This document shows positions 1,741 to 3,555 of a stretch of DNA of 13,659 nucleotides, one piece after another. The DNA is taken from NCBI GenBank assembly GCA_001789205.1, contig MFYT01000025.1, forward strand, positions 1 to 13,659. Reading direction: 5' to 3'. Both the position numbers and the translations under genes were made by a program. Every line of letters begins with the position of its first letter. Positions within the stretch are counted from its first letter, which is position 1. The notes beneath the pieces are model-generated. The model saw nothing but the letters and a program-made list of their open reading frames with translations. It was not told the DNA's origin and did no database searches. Origin of the DNA: Candidatus Raymondbacteria bacterium RIFOXYA2_FULL_49_16. Its GTDB lineage: Bacteria > Fibrobacterota > OXYB2-FULL-49-7 > XYB2-FULL-49-35.

Positions 1741-3555
1741 ATGCTTAAAGCTGTTCTTTTTGTTGTTTCGTTTGCATATGTAATTACCGCCTCTCCCACA
1801 ACCCAGCTCTCAGCCTATTATCAGGATATCTTCTCATCAAACGCCGATGATACTACGTTTACGTTCGGTGTCAATGGCGACAACCACATCAACTCCATCT
1901 ATGGTATCACGGCTGCGCAATACCGGAACACACTGACTACGTGGCGTACAGCCGGTTGCGCCTTTGTGACCACAGTAGGTGATTGGGGTTACGGCAATCA
2001 GGCCGACGTCGATAGCACACGCGTTGCAATCACCTCTGTGTCAAATTGCCCTCCGGTCCTGTTCACTATGGGCAACCATGAAATGGACGGCGTTGGAAAA
2101 CGCCCTTGGGTCGATTCGATTGCCAAAGGAGTTGTCACCGATTGGGCTTCTGCAGACGGTCTGACGGATAAGATATACTATGCGTTCACGTATGGTTCTC
2201 AATATCTCTTTATCTTCCTTGATGGCGATTACCAGGTTGGCGCAAGCGGCAGTTCCAATGGGACTCTCGATACTGTACAAGTACGCTGGTTTAAGGAACA
2301 ACTCGAGGCAAACAGGGACAAGCATGTGTTTGTCTTTTTCCACGAACCCATTGAACAATGGACCTATGATACACCCGGATACCTCTTTAATTCCAGGGGC
2401 CCGGTGTGCGCTGAATTGGAAAAGCACATAAACCTGAGCGGCAAACAGGCGTGGACTTTCTCAGGACATTTGCATTATGATAAGAAAACAACGTTCCACA
2501 AGGTTCACAGCGTTCATATCTCCGCGGGTACTGCAGGTGTGGTATCTATTGACGGTGATAACATAACCGTGAACGTGGGCAGTGGCTGGACCAATCTTGA
2601 CCAGTTTCCCTGTAATGTCGCCGAATATGACCCTATATCGGGCGATTCGGTCATACGGATTGCAGAGGACTCAATCAGGGGCATGTACAGTTCAGTACGC
2701 GATAATAATGTTTTTTCGCAGGTGACGGCTGAAAACGGCGTAGGCCCGGTCTATGGGACTAAAATGATGAAAGGCCCGGCAATCACTTGGTATCATTCCT
2801 ATCTATTTTCAGACCAGCTTATAACGGTCCGGCCCAATATGAAGTTTTTGTACTCAATCTACCTTGTAAACGTCAGTGCGGTCAATCAGGACCATGCGGG
2901 CATCCAGCCTTTCGTGGTTATGCCCGATGGTTCTAATCCCACAACAACGATACAAGACCAGAACGCCATATCGTTTGATATGAGAAAAACGCCCATTTTC
3001 CAGTGCTATGCCTGCGAGCTGCCATCGTTGGCTGGCCGCGCCTCGAGCCAATGGTATCACCGCGAGTTCGACCTCTCGGCCTTTGCCGGCGCCTCACTCG
3101 ACCGTTTTATGTTTCTGAGTCAGGCCAATGGGGCAAATTTCAGCTCGTTCTATGTTGACAACATTAAAGTGCGATGGCCTGCGCCAACAACGATCAAGGA
3201 AACACCCGCATCAGAACCCGATGATGATTTGGTCATACATGCATCACCAAATCCGTTTAATCCGGCTGTTACAATTTCAATTACGAATGTCAAATTATCC
3301 GCTTCGCCTGCGAAGCGAGGCGAGCGAATTATGAATCCTGATTTAAAAATTTATAATACCCAGGGACAACTCGTAAAAGATCTGACCTCGGACATTCGTA
3401 ATTTGAAATTCGTAATTCGCTCGCCTCGCATCGCCGCAGGCGAAGCGGGTAATTCAGTTGTCTGGGATGCATCGGGCCAGCCATCCGGTCTATATGTTGT
3501 CAGGGCTACTCTTGGCAGCAGTGTGTTCACCAAGACCATCACGCTTATGAAATAG
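1741..3555 (+). CDS. Secreted calcineurin-like metallophosphoesterase with C-terminal sorting domain
   Basis: This is a 604-residue exported protein. Residues 1-18 form a signal peptide (MLKAVLFVVSFAYVITAS). Residues about 40-260 carry the full metallophosphoesterase motif set: GDNH (D47, H49), GDWG (D81), GNHE (N112, H113), FFHEP (H201) and GHLH (H243, H245), so two-metal phosphoesterase activity is expected. Residues about 330-480 look like a beta-sandwich ending in FYVDNIKVRW, like galactose-binding-type carbohydrate or adhesion modules. From residue 501 (ASPNPFNPAVTIS) to the end (GLYVVRATLGSSVFTKTI) is a FlgD/type IX-like sorting domain, so the protein is probably sent to the cell surface or medium. 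The sorting domain is longer than usual because palindromic DNA repeats are translated within it at residues 520-531 and 558-570. The start is supported by the signal peptide, AGGGAG and the promoter. The substrate is unknown. Confidence 0.9.
   Translation: MLKAVLFVVSFAYVITASPTTQLSAYYQDIFSSNADDTTFTFGVNGDNHINSIYGITAAQYRNTLTTWRTAGCAFVTTVGDWGYGNQADVDSTRVAITSVSNCPPVLFTMGNHEMDGVGKRPWVDSIAKGVVTDWASADGLTDKIYYAFTYGSQYLFIFLDGDYQVGASGSSNGTLDTVQVRWFKEQLEANRDKHVFVFFHEPIEQWTYDTPGYLFNSRGPVCAELEKHINLSGKQAWTFSGHLHYDKKTTFHKVHSVHISAGTAGVVSIDGDNITVNVGSGWTNLDQFPCNVAEYDPISGDSVIRIAEDSIRGMYSSVRDNNVFSQVTAENGVGPVYGTKMMKGPAITWYHSYLFSDQLITVRPNMKFLYSIYLVNVSAVNQDHAGIQPFVVMPDGSNPTTTIQDQNAISFDMRKTPIFQCYACELPSLAGRASSQWYHREFDLSAFAGASLDRFMFLSQANGANFSSFYVDNIKVRWPAPTTIKETPASEPDDDLVIHASPNPFNPAVTISITNVKLSASPAKRGERIMNPDLKIYNTQGQLVKDLTSDIRNLKFVIRSPRIAAGEAGNSVVWDASGQPSGLYVVRATLGSSVFTKTITLMK
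3299..3330 (+). repeat. Palindromic repeat, copy 1, inside coding sequence
   Basis: This is a GC-rich element holding a perfect hairpin (CGCTTCG at 3300-3306, loop CCTG, CGAAGCG at 3311-3317), followed by AGGCGAGCGAATT. It is nearly the exact reverse complement of the element at 3414-3448, from which it differs by a 3-nt indel and one or two substitutions. It is read in frame as SASPAKRGERI within the sorting domain of the metallophosphoesterase. AT-rich flanks contain ATTACGAAT (3280-3288). Confidence 0.75.
3414..3448 (-). repeat. Palindromic repeat, copy 2, inverted relative to copy 1
   Basis: On the plus strand this reads AATTCGCTCGCCTCGC, then a hairpin with TCGCC (3431-3435), loop GCA and GGCGA (3439-3443), extended by CGC/GCG across an A-A mismatch. 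It is the inverted counterpart of 3299-3330. It is translated as IRSPRIAAGEAG. The preceding flank holds two direct copies of ATTCGTAAT (3394-3402 and 3408-3416), which are the reverse complement of the flank of copy 1. Confidence 0.75.

Follow-up and report, generated by a model that had tools for sequence, protein, structure and literature searches.

The metallophosphoesterase gene of the window, by which we mean the whole 13,659-nucleotide stretch of DNA from Candidatus Raymondbacteria bacterium RIFOXYA2_FULL_49_16 analysed here, contains two palindromes translated in frame and in opposite orientation within its C-terminal T9SS sorting domain (CTD). These are probably two separate insertions of short (24-30 nt) mobile REP-like palindromes that target a seven-base repeat, with selection retaining the in-frame survivors. 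In the following paragraphs we describe the gene, the palindrome family and its insertion site, and then discuss the other explanations and the known systems that it resembles.

The product of 1741-3555 matches PF00149 (calcineurin-like phosphoesterase; E 1.3e-5) in a profile search. The Por/T9SS sorting-domain alignment, at 503-600 of the product, covers both insert regions; TIGR04183 scores just below its cut-off (21.6 bits vs. 23) and PF18962 also falls below (21.5 vs. 27), a shortfall that the insertions probably explain. Elsewhere in the genome 150 other sorting domains exceed the TIGR04183/PF18962 cut-off. At E≤1e-40 no orthologue of the metallophosphoesterase was found in 40 genomes besides its own, and GTDB contigs gave one distant match; paralogous CTDs of the same genome, among which insert-free copies exist, therefore served as the empty and filled references in place of orthologues. 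The features of the region are as follows.

1741-3555, forward strand: metallophosphoesterase gene, with a T9SS sorting domain at the C-terminus of its 604-aa product (ORF; PF00149, TIGR04183, PF18962)
3247-3555, forward strand: sorting domain (CTD), from PNPFNP through the stop (profile match, paralogues)
3279-3297, forward strand: left spacer of loop 1, AATTACG-type heptamer, AATTACGAATGTCAAATTA (paralogue alignment; pairs with 3399-3417)
3298-3324, forward strand: palindromic insert 1, 27 nt, at AATTA^CGAA (empty/filled comparison; covariance-model match 3296-3329)
3325-3337, forward strand: right heptamer remnant of loop 1, CGAATTATGAATC (sequence, paralogue alignment)
3343-3384, forward strand: LKIYNTQGQLVKDL, central strand region that separates the arms of the inverted repeat (translation; predicted strand, fragment residues 39-44)
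3394-3419, reverse strand: heptamer spacer of loop 2 in the opposite orientation, ATTCGTAAT twice (sequence, paralogue alignment)
3420-3449, reverse strand: palindromic insert 2, 30 nt, at the same heptamer position (empty/filled comparison; covariance-model match 3415-3451)

An earlier note on this DNA had reported the two palindromes, and they were found again by an independent inverted-repeat search and by paralogue comparison. The limits it had given (3299-3330 and 3414-3448) are close to the empty-site boundaries, 3298-3324 and 3420-3449, and the 3-nt difference in length is genuine (27 vs. 30 nt). The AT-rich flanks that it described were also located: ATTCGTAAT occurs twice, at 3394-3402 and 3408-3416, and 3280-3288 holds the reverse complement ATTACGAAT. 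In a list of repeats for the whole window the region holds the first, third and eighth ranks: 3310-3336/3408-3434 (27 nt, 93%), 3293-3312/3435-3454 (20 nt, 95%) and 3279-3297/3399-3417 (19 nt, 95%), all inverted pairs; those joining the two loops rank among the longest of the window. The RNA fold of 3262-3470 reaches -87.5 kcal/mol (z -8.8), which none of 200 shuffles matched, and as DNA the region folds at -50 (z -7.4). This RNA fold, together with the approximately 55 copies in the genome described below, indicates that the palindromes are not due to chance. An Rfam search of the window gave no match.

Insert 1 is read in frame within ..SASPAKRGE.. and insert 2 within ..RSPRIAAGEAG.., and all six frames of both are open, with no stop. 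AlphaFold2, run on the single CTD sequence, gave a model of moderate confidence (mean pLDDT 67.9) with strands at fragment residues 14-20, 39-44, 76-81, 88-96 and 99-107; both inserts fall outside these strands, and pLDDT is below 50 at residues 25-28 and 63-75. The loops would accommodate 8-10 added residues while the tag retains the conserved C-terminal strand at its end. In-frame insertions would survive because the loops are tolerant and the element is free of stops in every frame, and the effect of an insert on secretion is presumably neutral or nearly so.

A pattern and covariance-model search of the whole 5.43-Mb genome revealed about 55 distinct copies, which bears out the suggestion of a dispersed REP/MITE-like family. 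Run at E≤1e-3 against 59 further genomes from the phylum, all of them distant relatives, the same covariance model gave no match; judged from these sequence searches, the family appears to be lineage-specific. On classifying 58 matches by position, CTD loops were found to hold 19 of the 55-58 copies, including the eleven best-scoring. CTDs constitute 2-3% of the sequence, and the excess is some 12- to 16-fold over chance (binomial P 1e-15 to 1e-18), the CTD counts, like the heptamer census, being drawn from 1.8-2.1 Mb of sequence partly chosen by CTD or palindrome matches. The remaining copies are intergenic, in small doubtful ORFs, or part of mosaic intergenic repeats. The preference for coding loops proposed in the earlier note does not extend to coding loops in general; it does apply to this one domain family, in which 19 CTDs carry 21 in-frame inserts. 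Sorting-domain proteins have undergone a very large expansion in this organism, with 263 CTDs in 2.08 Mb, often as arrays of neighbouring genes.

The AT-rich heptamer spacers and the palindromes differ in what they do to a loop. The spacer replaces ordinary loop sequence at unchanged length. The palindrome had been thought to replace the inter-strand loops as well; instead it lengthens them, loop 1 from a median of 15 aa (5-95%: 12-19) to 24-34 aa and loop 2 from a median of 12 aa to 19-26 aa. Close paralogues differ by an insert while their flanks otherwise align, and such empty/filled pairs have clean boundaries (C25 vs. C16, C21 and C57; C39:152236 vs. C14 and C77). Further pairs are C9:5103 vs. 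C9:3862, which differ by 30 nt, and C108:957 vs. C108:14833. The resolved inserts are 24, 27 or 30 nt long. All 12 inserts in an AATTACG context lie at AATTA^CGAA and are oriented alike with respect to the heptamer; loop 1 and loop 2 share this site, which in loop 2 is reverse-complemented. This preference of the AATTACG class for one exact heptamer position and orientation had escaped the earlier note. Distinct palindrome subtypes occupy GGCAG, GGTGAA and other spacers. A second palindrome-like repeat of about 24 nt is seen in loop 1 of C40 (CTD 8732) and C77 (CTD 999); in C40, which has both palindrome types, it is TCCTTCGACAAAGCTCGGGACAAG.

The frame of reading varies among carriers. One palindrome DNA is translated as PASPAKRGER or as TRFARKARRAK, and another subtype gives YPPRLTLGEAG. 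In C39:152236 the insert is shifted by one heptamer (7 nt) relative to the strand and reads TRFARKARRAK, not PASPAKRGER. It is therefore the DNA and not the peptide that is kept, which makes it highly implausible that the loop peptides (ITNYELR, IRNSKFV, ASPAKRGE) were themselves selected with DNA similarity following secondarily: the preservation of a 15-aa loop 1 by heptamer spacers and the orientation fixed for each loop would fit selection against unfavourable peptides, but unrelated spacer families fill the same loops and the reverse complementarity within genes, discussed below, lacks an explanation at the protein level.

From these observations we propose that AATTACG-type seven-base repeats are the target of the element, which enters them at AATTA^CGAA with a fixed orientation. 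In a subset of CTDs such repeats encode the spacers of both loops, and the palindromes end up inverted because the spacers are oppositely oriented in the two loops. That the two loops were entered independently, as previously suggested, agrees with the occurrence of paralogues having an insert in loop 1 only, in loop 2 only, in both and in neither. On a CTD tree built without the loops the inserts are scattered, requiring 13 changes for 15 loop-1 carriers and 6 for 6 loop-2 carriers, this tree being a weak one of only about 60 residues. Two CTDs illustrate other outcomes: C31:12744 has an insert with a stop codon shortly downstream of it, and C97:7678 is a CTD remnant with an insert in a third loop. 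The evidence for mobility of the palindromes comes from one genome.

We consider it unlikely that one or two original CTD insertions were simply duplicated and copied by gene conversion, through recombination between repeats, with little or no transposition. Paralogous CTDs are numerous enough for such exchange, and CCGCTTCGCCTGCGGCGAYGCGAGG, the loop-2 subtype, is found only in CTDs, as are several of the loop-1 subtypes. The AATTACG loop-2 inserts are nearly identical and restricted to CTDs, and gene conversion or duplication of CTD segments may on that account explain part of the spread. Copying of this kind does not, however, readily account for differing subtypes in AATTACG, GGCAG, GGTGAA and other spacers that are scattered on the CTD tree, for close paralogues that differ by the insert within otherwise alignable flanks, or for the same insert in a spacer class displaced by 7 nt and translated in another frame; related palindromes also occur in intergenic regions. 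Gene conversion between CTDs probably adds to the spread, and transposition, rather than local gene conversion as the sole process, appears to have dispersed the family.

Mobilization by a RAYT, which the earlier note had suggested looking for, was rejected. Four Y1_Tnp genes are present in the genome and none has the family palindrome beside it; these Y1/RAYT-like genes (C107:16297, C18:29576, C18:57389 and C31:28537) each have different palindromes of their own on their flanks, such as GTAGGGGCGGGTTT...AAACCCGCCCCTAC at the C107 gene. Alignment of the copies showed no conserved terminal tag of the GTAG/CGTC kind that known REP superfamilies have, and no target duplication was seen at the inserts. 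The mosaic intergenic repeats are several hundred bases long, contain several palindromes each and are often near contig ends (C9:145490-145955, C42:52899, C61:4995, C29:16754, C13:128-646, C65:11118-11224 and C110:19567). Pfam searches of three genes neighbouring these repeats identified no transposase; their products are an AAA/DUF4143 ATPase, a sigma-54 response regulator and a sulfatase.

The inverted arrangement of loops 1 and 2, also missed previously, is found genome-wide in CTD genes, including those free of palindromes. In the 214 CTDs that lack a recognised palindrome, the complementarity of loop 1 to loop 2 is much stronger within a gene than between genes (z 10.8). Direct similarity of the two loops (z 2.9) is at the level of random CDS pairs; pairs of other segments from the same CTDs ranged from z -0.7 to 3.1, and geometry-matched random CDS pairs from -1.6 to 2.6. 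The complementarity persists without the AATTACG class (z 7.1), and also when the test is limited to one CTD subgroup (z 4.7) or to a single CTD from each contig (z 3.8-7.0), and it spans several repeat families (AATTACG, AGCAAGT, GGCAGCT and similar). In another genus it was z 1.4, a value based on only 6 usable CTDs. The relationship of loop 1 to loop 2 offers a measurable constraint on DNA within a gene.

Complementary loops could also reflect a selected hairpin of mRNA or single-stranded DNA, in which loop 1 pairs with loop 2 on either side of the central strand and which controls the speed of translation, the decay of the mRNA or the folding of the tag as it is exported. The strong fold of the window and the loop 1:loop 2 complementarity in CTDs of different repeat families are what such a hairpin would be expected to leave. 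We nevertheless regard it as quite improbable, since a strong stem is absent from most CTDs and mismatches between the arms have no excess of G-U: at a score of at least 8 there were 16 G-T vs. 33 A-C, compared with a background of 199 vs. 208. The lack of a G-U excess favours a mechanism acting on DNA, and we prefer template switching to an mRNA hairpin as the cause. During replication, switching between the arms of the inverted repeat would copy one arm into the other, which would be the simplest way for the loop 1 and loop 2 repeats of a gene to match; the suggestion derives solely from the complementarity and the absent G-U bias in these sequences. More tentatively, and with some doubt, the loop-coding segments may constitute an inverted-repeat pair that is repeatedly homogenised by template switching, can form a hairpin or cruciform, and acts as a landing platform for site-specific mobile palindromes. 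If so, repeat DNA would be diversifying the export tag of many proteins while the strands stay fixed.

Palindromes within genes are known from several bacteria; what sets the present ones apart is their concentration in one domain, at an exact site in seven-base repeats. In Rickettsia, palindromic elements of 105-146 bp are inserted in unrelated conserved proteins (PMC2229807), and RPE-4 and RPE-6 are shorter members (PMC3733652). Such protein-coding palindromes of Rickettsia and Wolbachia lie in frame inside functional genes, where the protein tolerates them, and have intergenic copies too (PMC2229807; PMC3733652). The resemblance noticed earlier, in an unrelated phylum, holds for in-frame insertion in coding loops: the present palindromes likewise lie in frame within genes that stay open, and intergenic copies exist. 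They differ in their length of 24-30 nt, in their concentration in two loops of a single domain family and in their heptamer spacers, the comparison being one of descriptions. For several species intragenic REPs have been described, and loops were suggested to be the sites that tolerate them (PMC3733652; PMC3116915). The family resembles REPs and REPINs in that its palindrome is short, GC-rich and imperfect, with a bulge of one base, in its dispersed distribution and in occasional pairs in opposite orientation; unlike them it has no GTAG/CGTC tag, the RAYT genes are accompanied by other palindromes, and there is a strong bias to one protein domain.

The closest match in size, structure and target is to the small dispersed repeats (SDRs) of Nostoc punctiforme (Elhai et al. 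2008, Genome Res 18:1484), a comparison made by description. These are reportedly hairpins of 21-27 nt, often situated within tandem heptamer repeats. Ours are dispersed hairpins of slightly wider range (24, 27 or 30 nt), also with a precise site in a short repeated motif, whereas the SDRs are cyanobacterial and are not described as specific to the coding loops of one domain. In Nostoc, SDR5 has a precise site within HIP1, which it enters after the third base and before the fourth (PMC4390886). Heptamer direct repeats, such as TAACTGA in the Beggiatoaceae and those of cyanobacteria, are scattered across phyla and of unexplained origin (PMC4679880). They occur mostly between genes near start codons, whereas the heptamers described here (AATTACG, AGCAAGT and GGCAGCT types) encode CTD loops and are inverted between the two loops.

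Coding inverted repeats with retention of protein function are found in mitochondrial genes of Nematomorpha (PMC6649704), and template switching homogenises inverted-repeat arms within coding DNA (PMC8604942). By comparison, the arms here are short repeat spacers in the same two loops of many paralogues, and their homogenisation is presumed. In Porphyromonas gingivalis 29% of the PorSS CTDs are reportedly associated with MITEs (PMC4596501); these adjoin the CTD genes, while our palindromes are inside the sorting domain. In the open-licence literature we found no precedent for a heptamer target combined with two fixed loops in a single domain family. In-frame palindromes are usually viewed as scattered accidents. 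With repeated insertions, empty-site paralogues, a fixed site and orientation, and translation in multiple frames, tolerance, targeting and mobility become separable for study.

Elsewhere in the phylum (L232, L238, L239 and L240) AATTACG heptamers are present as intergenic inverted pairs, in some cases around a GC-rich hairpin. A search of the phylum for inverted-pair patterns of the heptamer also revealed intergenic hairpins of this heptamer, some of which enclose a central GC-rich hairpin (G096 and G117), and heptamer arms around a palindrome are thus found outside genes as well.
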